DNA of 64,000 bases. It comes from a virus. Position 1 is the stretch's first letter. Every line of letters starts with the position of its first letter. Location of the stretch: the IMG/VR virus record IMGVR_UViG_3300021519_000877, positions 1 through 64,000 of that record; one strand, given 5' to 3'. Positions 11,937 to 64,000 of the stretch are shown piece after piece. The notes under the pieces are model-generated. The model was not told where the DNA came from, made no database searches, and saw nothing but the letters and a program-made list of their open reading frames with translations. Both the position numbers and the translations under genes were made by a program.

Positions 11937-13109
11937 ATGACAAGAATTACACAACTACCACTTGCAACAACAATTTCAGAAACAGGAGTATTTGTTATTG
12001 TAGATGACGGAATAACAAAAAAACTTACCTGGCAAACATTACGATCCGGTGCGCTGAAAGGCGACACAGGCGCTAGCGGTCCGACAGGGTCAACGGGGCC
12101 AGCTGGCCCAACCGGTCCACGAGGCACCACAGGAACAGCGGCATCGGTTGCTGTTGGAACAGTAAGTATTGTCTCTGGCAATCCTACAGTAACCAACGTT
12201 GGCGATATGTATACTGCTGTTTTAAACTTTGGCTTACCACAAGGTCCTAAAGGCGATACAGGAACACAGGGAGTTGTTGGCCCAACAGGTCCACAGGGAA
12301 ATACAGGAACACAGGGAGTAGCTGGTCCTACTGGTGCTCAAGGCGCCCAGGGATCGTCTTCTACTATCCGAGTTGGCACAGTAACTACTGGAAGTCTTGC
12401 AGTTACCAACACTGGTACAATTAATAATCCAGTATTTAATTTTGTTATTCCAGCAGGCCCCACTGGCGCAACAGGAGCTACTGGGTCTACAGGAACACAG
12501 GGAGTAGCTGGCCCACAGGGAAATACAGGAACACAGGGAGCAGCTGGCCCACAGGGAAATACAGGAACACAGGGAGCAGCTGGTCCTACTGGTCCTAAGG
12601 GCGATACAGGAACCTACATATTAGTTACTGCAACTACTACAGTTCTTGGCGGTGTTAAGATCGACGGAACATCCATTACTATTGACGGCAGCGGAGTTAT
12701 TAGTTCTACTGGCGGTGGTGGCAGCGGATTAACAAGTAGAACTACAGCATCGATTACTACAGTTTCATTAACTGTTGGTGCTAGCACAACAACTAATATT
12801 GTTGGATACAAAGGATATGCATTAATGAGTATTCAAACATCTGCCGGCGCTTGGGTTACAGTGTATTCAAGTGCAGCCGCAGCCACAGCAGATGCTGCCC
12901 GTTCTATTGCAACAGATCCTACAGCAGGTAGTGGCGTAATTGCTGAAACTATTACAACAGCTTCAGGAACAACATATTTTAGTCCAGGAGTATTTGGTTA
13001 TAGTAGCGAAGCAATTCCTAGCACTAATATCCCTGTTAAAGTTTACAACAACAACGGAACAACAACACCTATTACTGTTACACTAACATTACTTAAACTA
13101 GAAGCATAA
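11937..13109 (+). CDS. Collagen-like tail fibre protein
   Basis: This 390-residue protein has a short globular N-terminus (about 1-40), then three Gly-X-Y blocks (about residues 43-67, 101-137 and 178-229) rich in GPTG, GPQG and GTQG triplets, separated by short beta-rich spacers. A Gly/Ser-rich hinge near residue 260 leads to a beta-rich C-terminal tip. Collagen-like triplets in phages form trimeric fibre shafts. The start ATG sits 1 nt after the giant protein stop and the stop is 1 nt before the peptidase gene, so the three are probably co-translated. The third block is encoded by near-identical 36-bp DNA repeats, annotated separately, so shaft length may vary. Confidence 0.9.
   Translation: MTRITQLPLATTISETGVFVIVDDGITKKLTWQTLRSGALKGDTGASGPTGSTGPAGPTGPRGTTGTAASVAVGTVSIVSGNPTVTNVGDMYTAVLNFGLPQGPKGDTGTQGVVGPTGPQGNTGTQGVAGPTGAQGAQGSSSTIRVGTVTTGSLAVTNTGTINNPVFNFVIPAGPTGATGATGSTGTQGVAGPQGNTGTQGAAGPQGNTGTQGAAGPTGPKGDTGTYILVTATTTVLGGVKIDGTSITIDGSGVISSTGGGGSGLTSRTTASITTVSLTVGASTTTNIVGYKGYALMSIQTSAGAWVTVYSSAAAATADAARSIATDPTAGSGVIAETITTASGTTYFSPGVFGYSSEAIPSTNIPVKVYNNNGTTTPITVTLTLLKLEA
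12491..12598 (+). repeat. 36-bp tandem repeat inside collagen-like gene
   Basis: Three consecutive 36-bp copies begin at 12491, 12527 and 12563, each starting AGGAACACAGGGAG; the third diverges after about 22 bp. Related, less perfect copies lie at about 12260-12330. Each unit adds 12 residues, exactly four Gly-X-Y triplets, so gain or loss of a unit keeps the frame. Confidence 0.85.
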
Positions 13110-13110
13110 T

Positions 13111-14775
13111 ATGTCTATTACTCCGACTATTTCAACAGAAGAACTTACAATAGGTGTGTATCTCAAACGAGATGCACACGAAAATGGTATGACCTTACAG
13201 GAATATACTAACGGAGTTATAGCCGGGACACAACCAACACTCGAGCATGATGCCTTTGTGTATCAGTTTGGAGCAACAGACGATGCAATTGATTTAGTTA
13301 CAGAATGGGCCGTAACAAATAATTTAACAGTGTTAGAATCGCACCACGGTACAGCCGTAGTAAAATTATCAGGCACCGCAGGGCAGTTCAATAACTTATT
13401 TGGCATTGAATTACAAACAGTTACTGATTCTAATAGGACATACAGTTCTTATACCGGACACTTTATTGTTCCTTCTGAAATTAATGATGTTGTTGAAGCA
13501 ATATTAGGAGTTGATGAGTCAGGCACCCTTATGCATAATGCCACCATGGAGGCAAGTAATGCTGGTCCGTTTGATCCAAATGTTATAGTAGGCCCGACTC
13601 CTGTTGATCATGCTCTTGCATATAAATTTCCAAGAACACCTGGCACTAATCAACAACAAGGATCAGGCGCATGTATAGGAATTATTGAACTTGGCGGCGG
13701 ATGGACTACACAAAATTTAACCAGCTCATTCAGTAGAATTGGTTTATCAAATCCCGTAGTAGTAGATTATTCAGTCGATGGCGGAACAAACAATCCAGGG
13801 GTGTATGATGCATATGGAGCAAGTGCTGAAGTTATGCTCGACATTTATTGTGCAGGCGCAGTTTCTCCCGGTGCAAAACAGGTGATATATTTTGCACCAA
13901 ATACCTACATGGGATTCGTTGATACAATATTAGCGGCAGCAAATGATACTGTAAATAATCCTAGCGTTCTTAGTATTAGTTGGGGAACTACTGATACTAA
14001 CTTTGGAACATTTTATCGAAATCTATATGAATCTGCATTTCAAACAGCAGTTGCAAGAGGGATTACAGTTTTTGCATCCACCGGCGACTATGGAGTAAGA
14101 GCAGTTAGTGGCGGTGGCCTTTATACCCTTGATTATCCAGCATCGAGTCCTTATGTAGTAGGTGCGGGCGGCACAGTTATATCAATCAATAACGATTACA
14201 CTATTGCTAGTGAAGTGGCATGGGGAACAGCAGGCGGCTCTACTGCCGGCGGCGGTGGAGTTAGCACACTATTCAGTGTACCGAGCTGGCAAACAGGGCT
14301 TGTTTCCACTACCTACCCGGGTAGCACTGCAACAACAATCACTGGTAGGTCGATTCCTGATGTATCTACAATGGCCGCGGGTTATTCTTTTTATTGGTAT
14401 AATTATACAAATTCAAGTAGCGCAGTTACTAACTCTTTTGGTACGTTTTTAGGCACTAGTGCCGTAGCACCGCTATTAGCAGGAATGATGGCCAGATTAA
14501 ATCAAGCATCGGGAAAAAGAATTGGGTTTGTTAATGCAGACTGGTATGCTAATAGCACCACTTGCTTTAACGACATAACATCGGGCGATAATCACGGTGG
14601 TAATACTGTTGGTTATAGGGCCAGCTCTGGTTGGGATGCAGCAACTGGGTTGGGGTCTCCTAAGGGAAATATGCTTTACAAGTTATATAATACTGGTTCA
14701 ACATTTCCTAAACTTAACTACGGATTTAGGCCAACCACTGGTAGCACATATCCTAGAAGACCAAGTATACGATAA
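13111..14775 (+). CDS. S53 peptidase (sedolisin/kumamolisin-type), pro-form
   Basis: This 554-residue serine-carboxyl peptidase looks complete. Residues 1 to about 150 resemble the pro-kumamolisin activation domain (a segment near 85-135 on HHGTAVVKLSGT and a FIVPSEI strand). The catalytic domain follows. Glu240 and Asp244 lie in AEVMLDI, spaced four residues as in the family; Asp326 lies in STGDYG, 86 residues after the Glu, the same distance as in kumamolisin; the nucleophile Ser450 lies in GTSAVAP. The C-terminal calcium-site elements FNDITSGD and GWDAATGLGSPKG are present. The family cleaves proteins, usually at acid pH, after autocatalytic removal of the prodomain. No signal peptide is visible. 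It lies between fibre genes 1 nt after the collagen-like gene, suggesting a virion-associated or fibre-processing protease (inference). Confidence 0.93.
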   Translation: MSITPTISTEELTIGVYLKRDAHENGMTLQEYTNGVIAGTQPTLEHDAFVYQFGATDDAIDLVTEWAVTNNLTVLESHHGTAVVKLSGTAGQFNNLFGIELQTVTDSNRTYSSYTGHFIVPSEINDVVEAILGVDESGTLMHNATMEASNAGPFDPNVIVGPTPVDHALAYKFPRTPGTNQQQGSGACIGIIELGGGWTTQNLTSSFSRIGLSNPVVVDYSVDGGTNNPGVYDAYGASAEVMLDIYCAGAVSPGAKQVIYFAPNTYMGFVDTILAAANDTVNNPSVLSISWGTTDTNFGTFYRNLYESAFQTAVARGITVFASTGDYGVRAVSGGGLYTLDYPASSPYVVGAGGTVISINNDYTIASEVAWGTAGGSTAGGGGVSTLFSVPSWQTGLVSTTYPGSTATTITGRSIPDVSTMAAGYSFYWYNYTNSSSAVTNSFGTFLGTSAVAPLLAGMMARLNQASGKRIGFVNADWYANSTTCFNDITSGDNHGGNTVGYRASSGWDAATGLGSPKGNMLYKLYNTGSTFPKLNYGFRPTTGSTYPRRPSIR

Positions 14776-14808: not shown

Positions 14809-15471
14809 ATGGAAGATTCAAAAGAAAACAAAATGACTGAAAACCAACAACAAATTCCTCAACAATCAAAGCCAAATGAGCAGGCAGGTCTGCACATCCA
14901 AGGGCATATCAAGATTTTTGACCCAGAAACTAAAGAAGTATTCATTGATAAGCGTAACGCTATTCACTATGAAAACTTTAGTATTGGTCTAGCACAGGCT
15001 ATGAGCAATCAAGGCCAGGGATTTATCTCTGAAATGTGCTTTGGCAACGGCGGAAGTCGTATTGACCCTACTGGGATCATTACATATTTGACTCCAAATA
15101 GTGTTGGATTAAATGCTGATCTATATAATAAAACATATACTAAGAATATCGATTCTAACAGCACACTAAATTTAGATCCATCTAGAAATTTTATGGAAGT
15201 GCGCCATATTACAGGCACTGCATATACTGATATTTTAGTAAGCTGTTTGTTAGACTTCGGCGAGCCAAGTGGTCAACAAGCATTTGACCAAAGTACCGGT
15301 AAGACAGATTATATATTTGATGAATTAGGGTTACGAGCTTATAGCCCAGAGGGAGCAGGCGCAGGTATGTTACTAACTCACGTTATTTTTCACCCTGTTC
15401 AAAAGTCATTGAATAGATTGCTACAAATAGATTACACAGTTAGAATTCAAAGTCTAACTAACGGGGCATAA
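14809..15471 (+). CDS. Conserved phage structural protein, unknown role
   Basis: This 220-residue protein has a Gln/Glu/Lys-rich, probably flexible N-terminus (about 1-30) and then a compact beta-rich domain. The start could be Met1 or Met9 (14833); neither has a strong Shine-Dalgarno. No catalytic motif was found. It lies between the S53 peptidase and the four fibre paralogues and its stop is 2 nt from the next ATG, so a role in fibre or baseplate attachment is plausible by position only. I recognise it only as a type of protein found in fibre regions of aquatic T4-like phages. Confidence 0.75.
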   Translation: MEDSKENKMTENQQQIPQQSKPNEQAGLHIQGHIKIFDPETKEVFIDKRNAIHYENFSIGLAQAMSNQGQGFISEMCFGNGGSRIDPTGIITYLTPNSVGLNADLYNKTYTKNIDSNSTLNLDPSRNFMEVRHITGTAYTDILVSCLLDFGEPSGQQAFDQSTGKTDYIFDELGLRAYSPEGAGAGMLLTHVIFHPVQKSLNRLLQIDYTVRIQSLTNGA

Positions 15472-15473
15472 TA

Positions 15474-17315
15474 ATGGGCGAATACAGAATACTCTACTCT
15501 GATCCGGCAAAAAATAGTAGTCCTATTATAGTTGCTGATAATTCGCTGAATAAAAATTCTACAAGTTTAACACTTGTTGGCCGTAACTATCCGGGATACG
15601 GAGAAACAGTTGAAACTGATCTAGTTCATCTGTTAGAAAATTTTGCGGCATCTAGTCCTCCTAGTAATCCTATTGAAGGACAGTTATGGTTTGATACTAG
15701 CGACCCTAGCTCTAAAGTATTAAAAATTAATGATGGCGGCATCAGCGGATCAAGATGGTCTCCTATTAATGGAGTATTTCAACAGCCTAATACACCTACT
15801 AATGTTAAGACTGGCGACATCTGGGTTGATACTGCTAATCAACAATTAAAGTTTTTTAATGGTACCGACTTTACCTTAGTTGGGCCAGACTTTTCGGGCG
15901 GATCAAGGACTGGAAGTTACCCTGCATCATTAATTGATACAGTTGGACAAACACATAACGTAATTATAAACTATGTCAATGATGAAGCTATTGAAATCAT
16001 TGCTGCCTCAAACTTTACACCAAATCCTGTTATTAACGGGTTTGGATCTTTAAAGCCAGGCCTTAATATTTCATCTTCAAATGTAGGAACAATATCAACT
16101 CCTATATATCCACGAATTAATGGTATTGCAGAATCATCGTATAACTTACAGATTTCTATTCCATCAAGTCAAAAAATTACAGCTGATGCATTTTTAAGAA
16201 ATGATATTGATCAGCGTATGTCAGGATCATTAAACATTGCTACTGACAACAACTCATTAAAGATTGGTGTAGATCCTACATTCTTGCTTTATAGATCTAC
16301 TATTGGTAATAAGGCTGTCTTCTCAAACATTCAAAACAACGGCCAGTTTAATTTTATTATTAACGATTCTAATGGAACTCCAAATAATGTTTTAACAATG
16401 CTTGGCGAGAAAAAGTATGTCGGTATTAATAATTCCGGACCACAGTTTGAATTAGATGTTGTTGGATCTATTAAAGCTACATCAAGTGCTACAGTTGATA
16501 CACTATATGTAACAAATACTACAGGCACTATTAATACAGTTGCAGGCAATGCTGTTCAAGTTGCAGGCGGAGTAGGTATAAGCGGCACGTTGGTAGTTAC
16601 TGGGGAACACATTCTTCAAGGACCATTAACAGTTGGGCAAACTGTGCTTCCGGCAATTGTTCCGGATGATGTTCAATATTCGATAGTATTGCCTACAAGA
16701 GATGCTATCTATAATATGGGTGATAGCAAGTTAAGATGGAAAGCAGTATATGCTAATACATTCTTAGCAACTAACTCCGGAACTCAAGCACAGTTTGTTG
16801 GTAATGCAACTTCTGCAACAAAACTATCAACACCAAAGAATTTTTATTTAACGGGAGATATTACTGCTCCGACAGTTAGTTTTGATGGTTCGTCATATAC
16901 TAATATTTTTACTGCTACTGCGCAGACAACATTGATTACAGGAAAAGCAAATACATCAACAACATTTGCTTCGGATTCAATATTAGTTTATAGCACAAGT
17001 ACTACAAAGTTATATCAACACACTAAAAAAGATTTCCTTAAAGATATAAATTATTACGACATTGCTCCAGGAAATACTCCGTATAGCACTCCTTCTGGAA
17101 GTTTAGTTCCGGTCGGAACAATTCTACCCTACGTAGGGGTAACTGCTCCAGTAGGTTGGTTATTGTGTAATGGGCAGACTATTTTAATTTCAAATTATCA
17201 ATATCTATGTACTAACACATTAGCTGGATATCCGTTTGGCGGCACCGGCGCATCATACAACTTGCCGAACATTCCTGACTTAGCATCGGGCATTAAATAT
17301 ATTATAAAATACTAA
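15474..17315 (+). CDS. Tail fibre paralogue 1, with tail-collar tip
   Basis: This 613-residue protein opens with the module shared by the next three genes: a TSLTLVGRNYPGYGE segment, LLENFA, a GQLWFDT strand and a GDIWVDT-QLKFFNGT-LVGP strand set (about residues 30-140). The middle is a beta-rich shaft with repeated VxGSIKATSSATV-like segments. The C-terminus (about 550-613), starting at VPVGTILPYVG and including APVGWLLCNGQ, matches the phage tail-collar domain found at fibre tips. It is the first of four head-to-tail paralogues and probably a receptor-binding fibre or its adaptor. Confidence 0.88.
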   Translation: MGEYRILYSDPAKNSSPIIVADNSLNKNSTSLTLVGRNYPGYGETVETDLVHLLENFAASSPPSNPIEGQLWFDTSDPSSKVLKINDGGISGSRWSPINGVFQQPNTPTNVKTGDIWVDTANQQLKFFNGTDFTLVGPDFSGGSRTGSYPASLIDTVGQTHNVIINYVNDEAIEIIAASNFTPNPVINGFGSLKPGLNISSSNVGTISTPIYPRINGIAESSYNLQISIPSSQKITADAFLRNDIDQRMSGSLNIATDNNSLKIGVDPTFLLYRSTIGNKAVFSNIQNNGQFNFIINDSNGTPNNVLTMLGEKKYVGINNSGPQFELDVVGSIKATSSATVDTLYVTNTTGTINTVAGNAVQVAGGVGISGTLVVTGEHILQGPLTVGQTVLPAIVPDDVQYSIVLPTRDAIYNMGDSKLRWKAVYANTFLATNSGTQAQFVGNATSATKLSTPKNFYLTGDITAPTVSFDGSSYTNIFTATAQTTLITGKANTSTTFASDSILVYSTSTTKLYQHTKKDFLKDINYYDIAPGNTPYSTPSGSLVPVGTILPYVGVTAPVGWLLCNGQTILISNYQYLCTNTLAGYPFGGTGASYNLPNIPDLASGIKYIIKY

Positions 17316-17319
17316 AATT

Positions 17320-19200
17320 ATGAGTTATACATTAAAACTAACCAACGGTAAAATATTATTAACGTTACCTGATCAACAATCAGATGCTATTTCAACGAGT
17401 CTAACTTTAATAGGTAAGAACGTTAATGCCTACGGTACTGATCTTAATGATAACTTTGTAAGATTGCTAGAAAACTTTGCAAATACTTCTGAACCAACAA
17501 GTCCGTTAATCGGGCAAATATGGTTTAATACTGTAGAGCAACGTATGTATGTTTACAATGCAGCAGATGAATTTAAGCCAGTTGGTGGTCCAATCGTTTC
17601 TGCAATACAGCCTGCTGGAATAAGCAGAGGCGACTTATGGATTGATACCACATCTCGACAATTAAAATTTCATGACGGTGTTAATATAGTTGCAGCCGGT
17701 CCTGATTATGATTACTCTAAAGGTAAATCAGGTTGGGTAGTTGAAACAGTTACAGATAATGTTAACGGTGATCATATAATTGTTGGTTTATACACTAACG
17801 GAACACTACAAGGTATTTTAAGTGATGTAGCATTTATTCTTAGGTCAGATTTCCAAACAAGCACCGGAATGACCTCAGTTGGAGTTGGCTTTACTGCCAA
17901 GGCTCCGATGAAGTTTATTGGTACAGCAACAAATGCTGAAGCCATTAATGGTGTTAGTGGTGTTAATATTTTAGATCTATCTTCTACATTGCCACAGAAT
18001 ATGAATGCTCCGTTATGGATCTATAATGACGAAGGACTAACAGTAGGCACCAACGGAGATATCCAGTTATTTGTAACAGGAACTAACCGCGTAACTACAA
18101 TGGCATTAGCCGGTGTGCAGGACTTTGATTTTATCGCTGCTACAAGTACCGGCACATTAAATCATATATTTTATTATAATGCAACTAATCAATGTTTAGG
18201 GGTTTACAATACTGATCCACAATTTGGAGTTGATGTAGTAGGTGATGTTCGTATTCAAGGAAATTTAGAAGTTTACGGTTCGTCAACATATATAACATCC
18301 GCTGACTTGCGAGTTGAGAACAAGGTTATCGAGCTTGGGTATTCAGATACTCTTACAACTGATCTAATGGCCAACGGCGGTGGATTAGAATTGCATGGCT
18401 CAACAACTAAAACATTTAAATGGTATAGTAGTGCTGATGCATGGACTTCAGGTGAAAATCTTGATTTAGCCTCTGGTAAAGTTTACAAAATTGGCGGTGT
18501 TGAAGTATTGAATGGTAATTCCTTGGGAGTTGCGGTAACTGCGGCCCCTGGATTAGAAACTGTTGGAATTTTAAATTCGCTAACAGTTGGTGTAATTCAT
18601 ATGGAAAATTATTCCATTGGAACCACATCAGGTGCGCCACTATTGCTTGGTGTTGCTCCAACTTCTAGTTTAGATGTGCAAGGATTAAAAATATTCAACG
18701 TTGGCAATATAAACTACTTAGATCCAGGTGATGTTGCAACTAACAAATCTTATGTTGACTCAGCAGTAGGTGTTGCTCGTGCAGGTCAGTTTGCTCCAAC
18801 TATCGATGTTACAGGACATGCTACTACACCAGAAGATCCTAACTTAAACGTATTTGTTCTTGGTATGTTACAAATTATGTTACCACCAACAGACCCTAGT
18901 CCGTATGGTGTTCCAGAAAACGGTCGTGCTCGAGTATTAGTAACACGATATGCATCTGGTGCAGTTTCTGCAGTTAGTGACAACATCGGATTCAATAGTG
19001 AAAGTGTTTATAGAGCAGGAACTAGCACACCGGTAAACGTTGTGCAATATCAAACAACTTATGTTGCATCAATAACTGTACCAGCAAGAAATTTAGCAAT
19101 CAACAGAGCAGTAAAACAATATATTGTTTCAGGCGGTGTATGGATTCAGTTACCATACGTTGGATCCTCAAACACTGTTTGGTCAGATGGTACATGGTAA
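17320..19200 (+). CDS. Tail fibre paralogue 2
   Basis: This 626-residue protein has the shared N-terminal fibre module (STSLTLIGKNVNAYG, LLENFA, GQIWFNT, GDLWIDT-QLKFHDG). The shaft contains segments such as VYGSSTYITSADLRVENKVIELGYSD, found in many phage fibre proteins that carry a trimerisation region. The C-terminal 150 residues form a distinct tip unlike the collar tip of paralogue 1. It follows paralogue 1 by 4 nt. Confidence 0.85.
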   Translation: MSYTLKLTNGKILLTLPDQQSDAISTSLTLIGKNVNAYGTDLNDNFVRLLENFANTSEPTSPLIGQIWFNTVEQRMYVYNAADEFKPVGGPIVSAIQPAGISRGDLWIDTTSRQLKFHDGVNIVAAGPDYDYSKGKSGWVVETVTDNVNGDHIIVGLYTNGTLQGILSDVAFILRSDFQTSTGMTSVGVGFTAKAPMKFIGTATNAEAINGVSGVNILDLSSTLPQNMNAPLWIYNDEGLTVGTNGDIQLFVTGTNRVTTMALAGVQDFDFIAATSTGTLNHIFYYNATNQCLGVYNTDPQFGVDVVGDVRIQGNLEVYGSSTYITSADLRVENKVIELGYSDTLTTDLMANGGGLELHGSTTKTFKWYSSADAWTSGENLDLASGKVYKIGGVEVLNGNSLGVAVTAAPGLETVGILNSLTVGVIHMENYSIGTTSGAPLLLGVAPTSSLDVQGLKIFNVGNINYLDPGDVATNKSYVDSAVGVARAGQFAPTIDVTGHATTPEDPNLNVFVLGMLQIMLPPTDPSPYGVPENGRARVLVTRYASGAVSAVSDNIGFNSESVYRAGTSTPVNVVQYQTTYVASITVPARNLAINRAVKQYIVSGGVWIQLPYVGSSNTVWSDGTW

Positions 19201-19213
19201 GGAAAAGGATTAA

Positions 19214-21187
19214 ATGGCATACACTATAAGTAAATCAAACGGCGGAACACTAATACTATTAAACGATGGTTTAGCAGATAATCAGGTAACCTCGTTAACC
19301 CTTGTTGGTAAGAATGTTAGTAATTTTGGCGATGCTCAAAATGAAAACTTTGTTCACATATTAGAAAACTTTGCTTCTGCGTTTGAGCCTCGCTCACCGA
19401 TGCAAGGGCAGATATGGTTTGACTCTAGTTCTAATGTATTCCGTCCAGCAGTATTCGACGGAACTAACTGGAGACCGATTGCTACTTTACTTTACAGTAA
19501 TACAACTACTGATACATTAGTTAATGCAGGATTTAATAATTTTGCAGCATCAAATCCTGGTGATTTCTGGTTTAATAGTTCTAGCAAACAACTACATGTA
19601 ATTACAAGCCTTGCAAACGATATGACCTTAATTGGTCCCGAAGCAGTGTATGGCTTTGGTGTTACAAAAATGTCATCGGTTAGTATAAAAGATATAAGCA
19701 ACGTTGCACATCCTGTTATTAAAATGATAGTAGATGGCACAGTTATTGGAGTTGTAAGCACACTTACATTTGCCACTAACGAAGTTGACCCGTATAATAT
19801 CTATAAAGGTATTACTCTTTCATCTAACTCTGCTCTAGCTGCAGGCACTATTTGGGCAACTACTCTTAACGGCAATTTGGTAGCTGGTCAGATTACCGCC
19901 GACAACGCTGATATTACTGCATTACTTGGAGTAACGGCTGCGATCGAAACCGTTAACGTTGATACACTTAATGGAACTACTGGTAATTTTACTACTGTTT
20001 CTGGAGATGTTGTTAATGGATCTACAGTAAATGCTTCTACAGTTAATGCTACAAATTTAACAGCGTCCGGCACAGGACTTATTACAGGTACTTGGAAGTT
20101 AAACACAAACAGTTATCTTACACCAAATACTGACGGCTCAAATGATTTAGGAACTAGTTCACTTAGATTTAACAATGTTTATTCTAAAGCACTGAGCACA
20201 GGTAACTCTGCAAGTGCTGGAGATATTATAGGATACTGGAAATTAACTTCTGGGTCATCATTTACTCCTACAACGGACTTAGGTAACGACCTTGGAGCAT
20301 CAAGCAAACGATTCGGTACAGTATATACTTCAGGAATATCAGCAAGTAATGGTGGCAATGTAATCTCAGTAACAGGTTCCCCAAATATATCAGGCAATGT
20401 TACTCCCGCAATCGATAATCTGTATAGTTTAGGATCTGGCGCTCAAATGTGGGCAGAGGTTTTTGCAGACAACATTCAAACAAATGCAGTAGATACTACT
20501 CAAATAAATTCTGTCAATGGTACAATTAACACTTTATCTGTAATAAATGCAACAATTACCACGTTAACTGATGCATATTCTCATACTATTAGCCAGTTTG
20601 ATACAGATGGATCTCTTGCCACAAACTCAGATGCACGACTTGCAACACAGCGAGCAATTAAGACATATGTTGATTATGTTGCTCAAGGGTTAACTAATTT
20701 AATCAATGCAATTCCAACACCCGATACTGATGGGACATTAGCTGCTAACTCTAATTCAAGATTAGCAACACAGCGGGCTACAAAGACTTACGTTGACAAT
20801 ACTCGTTCGATATTGCAAACTGAAATAGATAACATTCCTCGTGGTGGTTTTGGAACGGACCAAACGTATGAGAATGTAACAGTTGCTAGAAACTTTGGTA
20901 CCTCATATGTTAATACTACAGGCAAGACCATGTGGGTTAATGCAACAGTTTCAACAGCTGATACTGACGGTGATGACCCATTCCAGTGGACCATTGCATT
21001 TGTAAATGGTATGGAAATTACTCGACAAGTGTGGTTAAACAATTATACAGGTGCCCCGTGCCAGATGACATTACAGTTTTTTGTTCCACCAGGAGCTTCC
21101 TACTATGTTAATATCTATACTACAGATGAACCACCAAATCAACTATCGTTTGGCCAGTCGATATTAAACTGGATCGAATTTAGATAA
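19214..21187 (+). CDS. Tail fibre paralogue 3
   Basis: This 657-residue protein has the shared N-terminal fibre module (TSLTLVGKNVSNFGD, HILENFA, GQIWFDS). The shaft contains two near-identical segments around SRLATQRATKTYVDN and DARLATQRAIKTYVDY (about residues 470-535), a common fibre coiled motif. The C-terminal 110 residues look like a beta-sandwich tip ending in WIEFR. A Shine-Dalgarno (GGAAAAGGAT) precedes the ATG. The tip differs from those of the other three paralogues. Confidence 0.85.
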   Translation: MAYTISKSNGGTLILLNDGLADNQVTSLTLVGKNVSNFGDAQNENFVHILENFASAFEPRSPMQGQIWFDSSSNVFRPAVFDGTNWRPIATLLYSNTTTDTLVNAGFNNFAASNPGDFWFNSSSKQLHVITSLANDMTLIGPEAVYGFGVTKMSSVSIKDISNVAHPVIKMIVDGTVIGVVSTLTFATNEVDPYNIYKGITLSSNSALAAGTIWATTLNGNLVAGQITADNADITALLGVTAAIETVNVDTLNGTTGNFTTVSGDVVNGSTVNASTVNATNLTASGTGLITGTWKLNTNSYLTPNTDGSNDLGTSSLRFNNVYSKALSTGNSASAGDIIGYWKLTSGSSFTPTTDLGNDLGASSKRFGTVYTSGISASNGGNVISVTGSPNISGNVTPAIDNLYSLGSGAQMWAEVFADNIQTNAVDTTQINSVNGTINTLSVINATITTLTDAYSHTISQFDTDGSLATNSDARLATQRAIKTYVDYVAQGLTNLINAIPTPDTDGTLAANSNSRLATQRATKTYVDNTRSILQTEIDNIPRGGFGTDQTYENVTVARNFGTSYVNTTGKTMWVNATVSTADTDGDDPFQWTIAFVNGMEITRQVWLNNYTGAPCQMTLQFFVPPGASYYVNIYTTDEPPNQLSFGQSILNWIEFR

Positions 21188-21202
21188 TACTACGGATAAA
21201 TT

Positions 21203-22762
21203 ATGCCATACACAATTAACAGAACTAACGGATTAAAAGTAACAGTTGTTCAAGACGGAACAATAGATACAACCTCGCTTGATATTATCTTAGTTGGTAA
21301 GAACTATTCGGGTTACGGTGAGTCTTTTAATGAAAACTTTGTAAAATTATTAGAAAATTTTAGCAATACTACAGAACCTAAGAAACCTCTTAGTGGGCAA
21401 TTATGGTTTGATGCAAAGAATAAAAAAATAAAAGTGTATGATGGTACAAAATTTAAATCGCTAGGAGTAGTTGATACTAGTGTGGTTAGACCAACAAGTA
21501 TGAATCAAGGTGATTTGTGGTACAATCCAACAGATCTAAAACTTTATGCATATAACGGTAATTCGTGGATACTAATCGGCCCATCTGCAGCGAGCGGATC
21601 TAACGGAGTAAGCACAACCTCTGTTATTGATAATAATGGAAACAGTCATCCAATAAGCCAAACAGTGCTTGGCAATTCTTCCCCATCAGTAGTGGCTCCT
21701 CCAGGCCCAGATTGGCGCATTAGTGTAACACCGACTGACGGCTTATACAATACCTATCCAACATTGGTGCCTGGTATTAACTTGCCCGGCACACTCGGCA
21801 ACGGAGTCAGTGCCTATAATACAAGTACCGGTTATATGTTTTGGGGAACTGCTGCTACAGCGTTAGGCTTAGTAGAAGGCACAACGGGCATGGTCCCTGT
21901 GTCAGAATTATTAAAAAGAAGCGAACTAACTACTGGTGCAGATTTTCCAATAGTCACAAATTATGATGTTACTGTTGGTCTTGCACGAGTTGTAAGAATC
22001 CATGTAACTGATTCAACTGTAGGCAATATAAGTAATATCCGCGATACTCGCTTACAGTTTAATGTCAGTACACCATATAGCGGAACATATACTAATATCC
22101 TTAACTTAGATGGTGCCGGCAGTCGTCAAGTGCTTCCAACAGCAGACGGTCCTGTAAATTTAGGAGCAACCAATAATCAGTTTAGCAACTTATATGTTAA
22201 TAACATCAATCCTGGCGCAAGTACTGTAGGTGCGATAACTGGTAGTTGGACCGCGGATACATTAGCGGCAACAAATTTCTCGGCATCTACTGCTACAATA
22301 TCAACATTATCTGCTGCTGTTGGCGGCGGAGTAGTAACAGGAATATGGACATTAGCAGATGGCGCAATGTTTGAATCAACGTATGCTGACTTAGCAGAAC
22401 GCTATGCAGCCGACGCCGAATATGCTCCAGGCACTGTATTAGTAATCGGAGGCGATGCCGAAGTTACTACAACGGATCGTAGAGGAAATACAGCGGTAGC
22501 AGGTATAGTATCCACAGATCCTGCTTATACATTAAATGCTGACGCAGGAAATGATAGCACTCATCCATACATTGCACTTAAGGGTCGTGTGCCATGTAAA
22601 GTAGTCGGCCCTATCAGCAAGGGAGACTTATTAGTTACTTCAAGTACAGCTGGTCACGCTGAACGAGCTCATGCAAATGATAATCCAAATGCTGTTCTCG
22701 GTCGTGCATTGCAGGACTTTGAAGATTCAACTGCCGGCCTTATAGAGGTAATGGTTGCCTAA
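21203..22762 (+). CDS. Tail fibre paralogue 4 with YADLAERY-type C-terminal domain
   Basis: This 519-residue protein has the shared N-terminal module (SLDIILVGKNYSGYG, LLENFS, GQLWFDA, GDLWYNP-LKLYAYNG). The last 130 residues, from TYADLAERYAADAEYAPGT, form a glycine-rich beta domain seen at the C-termini of other phage fibres and resembling intramolecular-chaperone or autoproteolytic fibre tails; the cleavage activity is not proven here. It is the last gene of the plus-strand block and a strong terminator follows 14 nt after its stop. Confidence 0.85.
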   Translation: MPYTINRTNGLKVTVVQDGTIDTTSLDIILVGKNYSGYGESFNENFVKLLENFSNTTEPKKPLSGQLWFDAKNKKIKVYDGTKFKSLGVVDTSVVRPTSMNQGDLWYNPTDLKLYAYNGNSWILIGPSAASGSNGVSTTSVIDNNGNSHPISQTVLGNSSPSVVAPPGPDWRISVTPTDGLYNTYPTLVPGINLPGTLGNGVSAYNTSTGYMFWGTAATALGLVEGTTGMVPVSELLKRSELTTGADFPIVTNYDVTVGLARVVRIHVTDSTVGNISNIRDTRLQFNVSTPYSGTYTNILNLDGAGSRQVLPTADGPVNLGATNNQFSNLYVNNINPGASTVGAITGSWTADTLAATNFSASTATISTLSAAVGGGVVTGIWTLADGAMFESTYADLAERYAADAEYAPGTVLVIGGDAEVTTTDRRGNTAVAGIVSTDPAYTLNADAGNDSTHPYIALKGRVPCKVVGPISKGDLLVTSSTAGHAERAHANDNPNAVLGRALQDFEDSTAGLIEVMVA

Positions 22763-62174: not shown

Positions 62175-64000
62175 TTAGGGTGTTGGGTAATATAACCAAC
62201 CATTTTGATCTGATTCTTTTGGTGTTTCGACAATAATTCTATCTGTATCAAAATCGAACTGTTTAAAATCAAATCCACTATCTCTAATTCTAGATAATAC
62301 TTTGGCTGTATTACCGGGTAACACATAACAAATAGGAACTGCTTTAATAAATCCTAGTGGCACTCCTGTATCTGATTGTAATGTGGTCATATATCTTGGT
62401 TGCAATCTATCATCAACTGCTATTGTTGCAGAATCGATCTGTATAGCTTCTAACTGAGTCTGCATATTAGCCAATGAAACTGCATTTGCTGGACTGTAAC
62501 TATTGGACATTTGATTATCAATGATGTCTACATAAATTAATTCATAAACAATATTTCCATTAGAATCTTCTGCCGCTACACTCTTTATATCTCCAAAGTA
62601 GAATCGTTTTCTATGGAAATATTGTTGCATTGCACCTACGTAAGAATTAATGTCAATCTTTTCAAGGCCTGTTTCAATAACCATTTTGATTTGTGGCTGA
62701 ACTCCGAACTCTGGATCGTTTGGTCTGTATAGTAATGTAGAATCGAATGTTACTGAGTTACTCATAAAATCTCGATATGCAACTCTGCTTGCTGGAGCCA
62801 AAAATGGTTTAACATATACTCGTGTATATTCAGTAAGTGATGTTTCTTTGATAGTAATGTAGCATTCTTGATCAACTGCACTTAATTTGTAAACATCGCT
62901 TGCACGAACAGTAAAGTACCAATTCTCATCGATAGTAGTTGACCCGCCGTCAATAGTAAATGCATGAAATACATTTGTGGCAGTAAAGTCAAAATAAGTT
63001 TGACTCCTATAATCGACTCTGCCTTCAATCGTTCCGTCAGTGTTGAGTGTTAATCCTTTTGGTAAGACACCGCCTACAAGTTCATACTGTATATTATAAT
63101 CAGCATATACATTCTGTGCCAATACTGATAGCTCACTAAACTGTCCTGGAATTACAGTTCCTAACGAACCGGTAGTTATAAACTGAATGTAACTATCAAT
63201 ATCACCTTTAATTGTTAGAATAAAAATTTGAGGAGATACAACGGTACTTTGACTTTGCTGATCTGTTTTAATTATATTGATTGTAAATCTATAACTTTTA
63301 CTATATGCAGGTTGATATGAAAGGCGTCCGCATAGCTGTCCAGTTTCACTGTCTAGGCTCATGCCGGGTGGGTGCTGGCTAGCAGTACCAAGATAAACAA
63401 CTTGTGAATCTGGCAACTCTTGAACTAATGGGCGATCTAAATTAAGAATGCCACTAGTTGTACCTGTTGGAATAACTCCGAGGATTGTATATGTTGTTGA
63501 ATCAAAATCTGGAATGTATTCGTCTAACCGTAGCTTCATACCTGCTACTGGAAATACTTTAGCATTTTTAAAATAAATTACAGAATCGCCTGCTAAATTT
63601 TTTGTTGGAAAACTGGCGGCATCGTATTGGCTATCAATAGCAATGCTTATTTCTGGATTGACTGTGGTTGACCAATCCCAAGTTAATGGACCTACAAATG
63701 GATACGGATCGTATTCATATAAAGAAATAATCTGATCGCGTCCGGATCTAATTGTTCCAAGATTGGCTGTTCGGGCCAGTAGTTGACCAAAATTGTTTTG
63801 CCATAACGGAGCAACAAGATAGCTTGCACTATCGTCGAGTAAGGTAGTATCTACGTGAACAGTAATATTGTCAGTTCGCAAACTATTAGGATCAACAATT
63901 GTCATGTTAAACAATTGGCGTGAGCTTGAGATACCGTCAGTGACTGTTATGTAAAATTGATAAGTTTTATTAATTGACTCTGGCTTAACCAGTTCAACAA
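62175..64000 (-). CDS. Large virion structural/adhesion protein, 5' partial
   Basis: The frame is open to the right edge with no stop, so the start is outside; about 608 residues are visible. Putative-Ig/cadherin-like motifs occur: PPGMSLDSETGQLCGRLSYQP near the middle and LPKGLTLNTDGTIEGRVDY further on, each like the LPxGLxL-TGxIxG signature of bacterial surface Ig-like domains, and a YQFYITVTDGISS segment lies at the edge. The C-terminus is alpha/beta and unrecognised. It lies downstream of unseen genes and upstream of the late fibre genes, so a baseplate or fibre role is inferred. Confidence 0.82.
   Translation of the reverse strand, partial: VELVKPESINKTYQFYITVTDGISSSRQLFNMTIVDPNSLRTDNITVHVDTTLLDDSASYLVAPLWQNNFGQLLARTANLGTIRSGRDQIISLYEYDPYPFVGPLTWDWSTTVNPEISIAIDSQYDAASFPTKNLAGDSVIYFKNAKVFPVAGMKLRLDEYIPDFDSTTYTILGVIPTGTTSGILNLDRPLVQELPDSQVVYLGTASQHPPGMSLDSETGQLCGRLSYQPAYSKSYRFTINIIKTDQQSQSTVVSPQIFILTIKGDIDSYIQFITTGSLGTVIPGQFSELSVLAQNVYADYNIQYELVGGVLPKGLTLNTDGTIEGRVDYRSQTYFDFTATNVFHAFTIDGGSTTIDENWYFTVRASDVYKLSAVDQECYITIKETSLTEYTRVYVKPFLAPASRVAYRDFMSNSVTFDSTLLYRPNDPEFGVQPQIKMVIETGLEKIDINSYVGAMQQYFHRKRFYFGDIKSVAAEDSNGNIVYELIYVDIIDNQMSNSYSPANAVSLANMQTQLEAIQIDSATIAVDDRLQPRYMTTLQSDTGVPLGFIKAVPICYVLPGNTAKVLSRIRDSGFDFKQFDFDTDRIIVETPKESDQNGWLYYPTP

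Follow-up and report, generated by a model that had tools for sequence, protein, structure and literature searches.

The window analysed here, a stretch of 64,000 nucleotides from the virus record IMGVR_UViG_3300021519_000877, contains behind a collagen-like tail-fibre gene a gene whose product, judged from its sequence, is an intact pro-peptidase of family S53 (kumamolisin type), in which all four catalytic positions are filled (Table 1). The reading that we favour, with a probability of roughly 0.6, is that this enzyme is a self-processing component of the tail fibre, which is held there by a C-terminal tag, cleaves a protein of the host surface, and replaces a subtilase. In many other phages this fibre end has as its partner a protease of one of two families, both with the same short tag at the end, which suggests that such viruses mount interchangeable proteases on their tail fibres. 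The source record is a virus contig of 74,425 bases. Among named phages, two jumbo phages have the DNA polymerases nearest to that of the contig, namely Sinorhizobium phage Phosso (49%) and Agrobacterium phage Atu_ph07 (46%), and the contig's polymerase is 80% identical to one on a 354,680-base contig, which also carries the S53 gene.

Table 1. Features of the S53 locus and its surroundings in the window.
Feature	Position	Strand	Basis
Collagen-like tail-fibre gene upstream of S53	11937..13109	+	Pfam Collagen E 1.5e-17; PHROG tail-fibre families
Putative dock at the fibre C-terminus (conserved, all-beta)	12720..13106	+	Alignment; ends fibre genes at loci found with the tag
TAA-T-ATG junction, 1 nt from fibre stop to S53 start	13107..13113	+	Spacing shared by 48/57 tagged genes
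S53 pro-peptidase gene	13111..14775	+	554 aa, ATG start; Pfam and phmmer
Pro-domain region	13111..13515	+	PF09286 at residues 9-135, E 1.6e-12
Catalytic Glu240 codon	13828..13830	+	Kumamolisin alignment; kept in 31/31
Catalytic Asp244 codon	13840..13842	+	Kumamolisin alignment; kept in covered relatives
Oxyanion Asp326 codon	14086..14088	+	Kumamolisin alignment; kept in covered relatives
Nucleophile Ser450 codon	14458..14460	+	Kumamolisin alignment; kept in covered relatives
Basic tag at the C-terminus (residues 526-554; two units, imperfect)	14686..14772	+	Conserved
Conserved jumbo-phage protein phrog_11259	14809..15471	+	E 2.7e-69; relatives in jumbo phages, one annotated structural
Four further fibre-like genes with a common N-terminal domain	15474..22762	+	phrog_14394/15511 matches
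Structural-protein homologue (fused to S53 or S8 elsewhere)	62175..63998	-	Open frame, gene start lower

The open reading frame of the S53 gene has no internal stop codons. The earlier note, made from the letters alone, had described the product as a sedolisin/kumamolisin-type peptidase with a pro-domain-like N-terminus and a C-terminal calcium-site motif, and the database searches agreed with this description. Pfam detected the pro-kumamolisin domain as well as a subtilase-fold domain (PF00082, E 1.7e-8), while in phmmer residues 10-523 aligned with pro-kumamolisin (1t1e) with an E-value of 6.8e-87, and sedolisin and human TPP1 were matched as well. The E-values of these matches exclude chance as the source of the S53 assignment. 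In the phmmer alignments the four residues proposed as catalytic in the note fell on the catalytic site of kumamolisin: Glu240 and Asp244 lie on EVELDI, Asp326 on AAAGDSG, and Ser450 on GTSA, where 1t1e has GTA, that is, alanine at the serine position. The spacing from the glutamate to the oxyanion aspartate, 86 residues, equals that between E78 and D164 of kumamolisin, and the calcium-site residues D488 and D509 also align with kumamolisin-type enzymes. The AlphaFold model of the protein was poor (mean pLDDT 52.8, with only 8 sequences as input), and the assignment is based on sequence alignment and not on this model, for which the best Foldseek match was again 1t1e. With its pro-domain, catalytic domain, Glu/Asp/Asp/Ser set and calcium-site residues, the window enzyme resembles kumamolisin and kumamolisin-As (PDB 1t1e, 1sio), while it differs from them in its position behind a phage fibre gene and in its final approximately 29 residues, which lie past the S53 domain and form a separate conserved tag. 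The protease is apparently active. No signal peptide is evident in its sequence. An acidic pI was considered as a sign of acid activation and dropped, because the tagged S8 proteins are about equally acidic, so that this property does not discriminate.

Relatives of the enzyme were abundant in IMG/VR, while a search of 50,697 phage records with the window protein returned no S53. A query from a second phage group, described below, likewise drew no S53 from the records of isolated phages, and PHROGs contained no family for the window enzyme. The fibre-linked S53 set consisted of 31 genes, of which 21 are distinct at 95% identity. Replacement of the catalytic residues in phage homologues, which would have spoken against the earlier assignment, was seen at none of the covered positions: the glutamate and aspartate are present in 31/31, the oxyanion aspartate in 29/29 and the serine in 27/27. 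Three members, L068, L088 and L229, start near the catalytic domain and have lost the pro-domain, with their covered catalytic residues kept, which indicates that zymogen activation is not universal in the set. One fibre-linked S53 gene (L327:2222-4300) contains an in-frame stop, which could mean that the gene is broken or that the sequence is in error. Bacterial genomes gave no match when scanned with peptides from phages only, and 542 relatives when scanned with a mixed alignment. The window enzyme is about 35-39% identical to cellular enzymes, the nearest one in the tree set being about 39% identical. In that tree eight phage S53 proteins were split from 85 cellular ones by a branch (97%), a grouping that is tentative, since a long branch carries two of these eight. 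A second group of phage S53 genes (L334-L365, for example L345:4929-5951 and L338:4830-5942) encodes proteins of mostly 340-460 aa, 30-38% identical to the window enzyme, with all catalytic residues kept and with no pro-domain in the members checked by Pfam; in L345 the genes after S53 resemble a tail fibre and an endolysin. This group was left out of the fibre-protease module, as neither tag nor dock was found in it.

The immediate surroundings of the S53 gene were as previously described. The stop codon of the fibre gene has its last base at 13109 and the ATG of the S53 gene begins at 13111, consistent with the noted distance of 1 nt from a collagen-like fibre gene, and the structural gene and fibre paralogues noted downstream correspond to phrog_11259 and to the four fibre-like genes behind it. 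The fibre ends in a domain of 129 aa, referred to here as the dock, which was predicted by AlphaFold with a pLDDT of 95.9. It had no confident match in the PDB (best E 7e-3), while among predicted viral structures its best matches were fibre proteins of Synechococcus phages. A search with the window dock alone, from which the Synechococcus dock set was obtained, also found the domain at the C-terminus of fibre-like proteins of these phages. In the cultured phages S-H9-1, S-CREM1, ACG-2014h, S-RSM4 and S-CAM1 an S8 subtilase gene follows the dock gene after 1 nt. When the 78 dock genes with downstream sequence were counted, the next gene encoded a peptidase in 72/78 cases (S8 in 66, S53 in 6), and something else in the remaining 6.

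The tag provided a second way into the same loci. Its consensus in the S53 proteins is ..FPKxNYxFRPTTGxxYPR.., and the C-terminal tail is common to the window S53 (FPKLNYGFRPTTGSTYPRRPSIR) and to the S8 subtilase of S-CREM1 (SPKVTYRQRPTTGHIFPRIRNRR). Scanning IMG/VR with a DNA pattern for RPTTGxxYPR alone gave 111 in-frame matches, of which 101 lie at most 15 residues from a stop codon. Among the long tagged genes (300 aa or longer, start complete, 400 nt of sequence upstream) a dock gene was located directly upstream in 57/57, with a spacing of exactly 1 nt in 48 of them. These genes split into two groups, S53 and S8, and all 31 S8 representatives scanned had a Pfam S8 match. The counts from the dock scan and the tag scan are not fully independent, since some of the dock query sequences derived from the tag search; over all loci, with near-copies removed, the dock partners were 74 S8, 20 S53 and 9 other. 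The tag is basic, with two imperfect units in 30/39 cases, and it is absent from the 85 cellular S53 proteins. As a genome pattern, it gave one match in 9/11 records, while the reversed control gave none. The gene arrangement described in the earlier note as an S53 gene inside a tail-fibre operon was correct as to the fibre linkage and understated as to its extent, the window being a single instance of a fibre-protease module that recurs in phages.

The tag is not a uniform property of the slot. It is missing from 22/66 complete peptidase partners of dock genes. In some marine cyanophages the dock partner is no recognised peptidase and the tag is found on a small second protein of 77-100 aa (L012:3272-3505, L013:6680-6913, L017:6726-7013 and L059:3368-3670), whose gene follows those of the dock fibre and of a large protein that matched no peptidase. 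In L088 and L072, 122-126 residues extend beyond the tag, so the tag need not be at the very end. Some S8 partners, such as those of L012 and L015, and also the protein of L072 after its tag, end in a further domain, which in L012 resembles phrog_677 (baseplate wedge-fibre connector) and in L015 weakly resembles a copper-binding domain; this further domain may be an alternative attachment. A protease-dock fusion, which was sought as direct proof of contact, was not found.

The S8 subtilases of T4-like cyanophages (S-H9-1, S-CREM1, S-RSM4, ACG-2014h and S-CAM1) thus share with the window enzyme the upstream dock, the 1-nt junction, an extension N-terminal to the enzyme, and, in S-CREM1, the same tag (a related one in S-CAM1), while they belong to another peptidase family. 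In a tree of the docks, a short domain with modest support, the S53-linked docks were nested within the S8-linked ones, with 7 label changes versus 27 in shuffles. This placement fits a takeover by S53 of an older S8 slot at the fibre dock.

A physical link between proteases and phage structural proteins is also encoded in single genes. In L332:4953-9461 and L333:3398-7891 a pro-S53 enzyme, cadherin-like and Ig domains, and a phage structural protein form one chain of 1,500 aa, the structural part of which is homologous, over nearly its whole length, to a protein whose gene in L001 lies three genes ahead of the S53 gene (E 1e-57). In the named relatives of the window phage, Atu_ph07 (gp329, AUZ95088.1) and Phosso (XYS97278.1), an S8 protease is fused to the C-terminal part of the same structural protein; here the link is by fusion instead of tag and dock, and the enzyme is S8 instead of S53. 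The Atu_ph07 fusion was identified as gp329 by counting genes onwards from gp292 and gp293, with gp327 as a check, and it is the last gene of the cluster CDS 284-329. The cluster that ends at gp329 has been described as rich in virion proteins (PMC6102473).

These data suggest the following course of events for the window enzyme. Translation of the S53 protein would be coupled to that of the fibre, as we infer from the 1-nt junction, and the basic C-terminal tag would hold the enzyme on the fibre, probably at the dock domain. Coupled translation, the tag and the conserved fibre-end dock together suggest a fibre-mounted protease, and carriage in the virion is likewise supported by the gene context, the tag-dock pairing and the fusions. 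In the cell the N-terminal pro-domain would keep the enzyme inactive; the enzyme would then remove its own pro-domain, with the mature form staying attached through the C-terminal tag. At adsorption it would cut a host surface protein, which could be an S-layer, pilus, adhesin or matrix protein. S53 appears to have displaced a subtilase at an older dock of the fibre. The earlier note had proposed a virion-borne protease that either processes fibres or degrades host surface proteins; its identification of the enzyme and of the tail-fibre linkage proved strong, while the two functions could not be separated.

An alternative is that the enzyme is a morphogenetic protease, which during assembly cleaves either the fibre that carries it or some other tail protein, any occurrence in the virion being incidental. 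The invariant spacing of 1 nt behind a single conserved fibre domain agrees with such a role, the fusions to the structural protein are compatible with it as well, and many phage proteases are maturation enzymes (PMC7824862). On the other hand, if the target were one set site in a phage protein, a single enzyme should have been kept, while S53 and S8, each with its own type of pro-domain, replace each other behind the same dock, and some docks are without a peptidase partner. We consider a morphogenetic role unlikely, although it deserves serious attention. That two peptidase families, unlike in their pro-domains, are exchanged at one site suggests a target that varies from host to host. Such variation favours a protein of the host surface over an unchanging phage protein, and the S53/S8 exchange leans towards an outward-facing substrate.

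The gene directly behind a fibre gene can also have a different kind of product. In T4, the gene directly behind the fibre gene gp37, gp38, supplies an exchangeable function at the fibre tip, and tailspike depolymerases are enzymes borne on tail appendages. These systems involve adhesins or polysaccharide-degrading enzymes, while the partner in the window is a protease, and the likeness is in the gene arrangement only. The position of the T4-like gp38 adhesin gene, together with the non-protease partners found in the same slot after other docks, could nevertheless point to an S53 fold that serves as an adhesin or fibre chaperone with protease activity no longer relevant. This is highly improbable, given that the catalytic residues are retained in all covered phage S53 proteins, including very divergent ones, and that the S8 partners retain the conserved His and Ser columns. 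A cargo or metabolic gene for a free protease, acting inside or outside the cell and placed in the tail region by chance, would be in line with the wide distribution of S53 among bacteria and with the second phage group lacking tag and dock, but is made highly improbable by the recurrence of the fibre linkage in some 20 separate lineages, which share the junction and, for the most part, the tag, by the separation of phage S53 from the 85 cellular S53 proteins in the tree, and by the lack of an evident signal peptide in the window enzyme.

The components of this arrangement have been known separately, as S53 enzymes, as S8 genes in cyanophages (PMC3037559), and as tail-borne enzymes. In P-HM1 and P-HM2 an S8 peptidase has been named (PMC3037559). 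In the literature covered, which included few subscription journals, the cyanophage S8 proteins appear as gene annotations and not as a fibre module, and we found there no relevant report of S53, sedolisin or kumamolisin in phages, nothing on tail-associated proteases, and no description of the tag or of its pairing with dock and protease.

A broader interpretation, which is tentative and in our estimate falls a little short of an even chance, is that many tailed phages possess a general fibre-end docking system, consisting of the beta domain and the basic tag, which displays exchangeable S8 and S53 enzymes that digest the protein coat of the host, with S53 as the newer occupant. If this is true, the tagged fibre proteases would be the protein counterpart of the polysaccharide-degrading tailspikes. 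The pairing of the fibre end with tagged proteases makes direct tests possible. Most of what is known about phage-tail enzymes concerns the cleavage of sugars and cell walls; an exchangeable protease slot that is widespread, if real, would explain how phages pass through protein surface layers, pili or matrix, and would give a function to many genes of cyanophages and jumbo phages that are now called "hypothetical" or "tail fibre".
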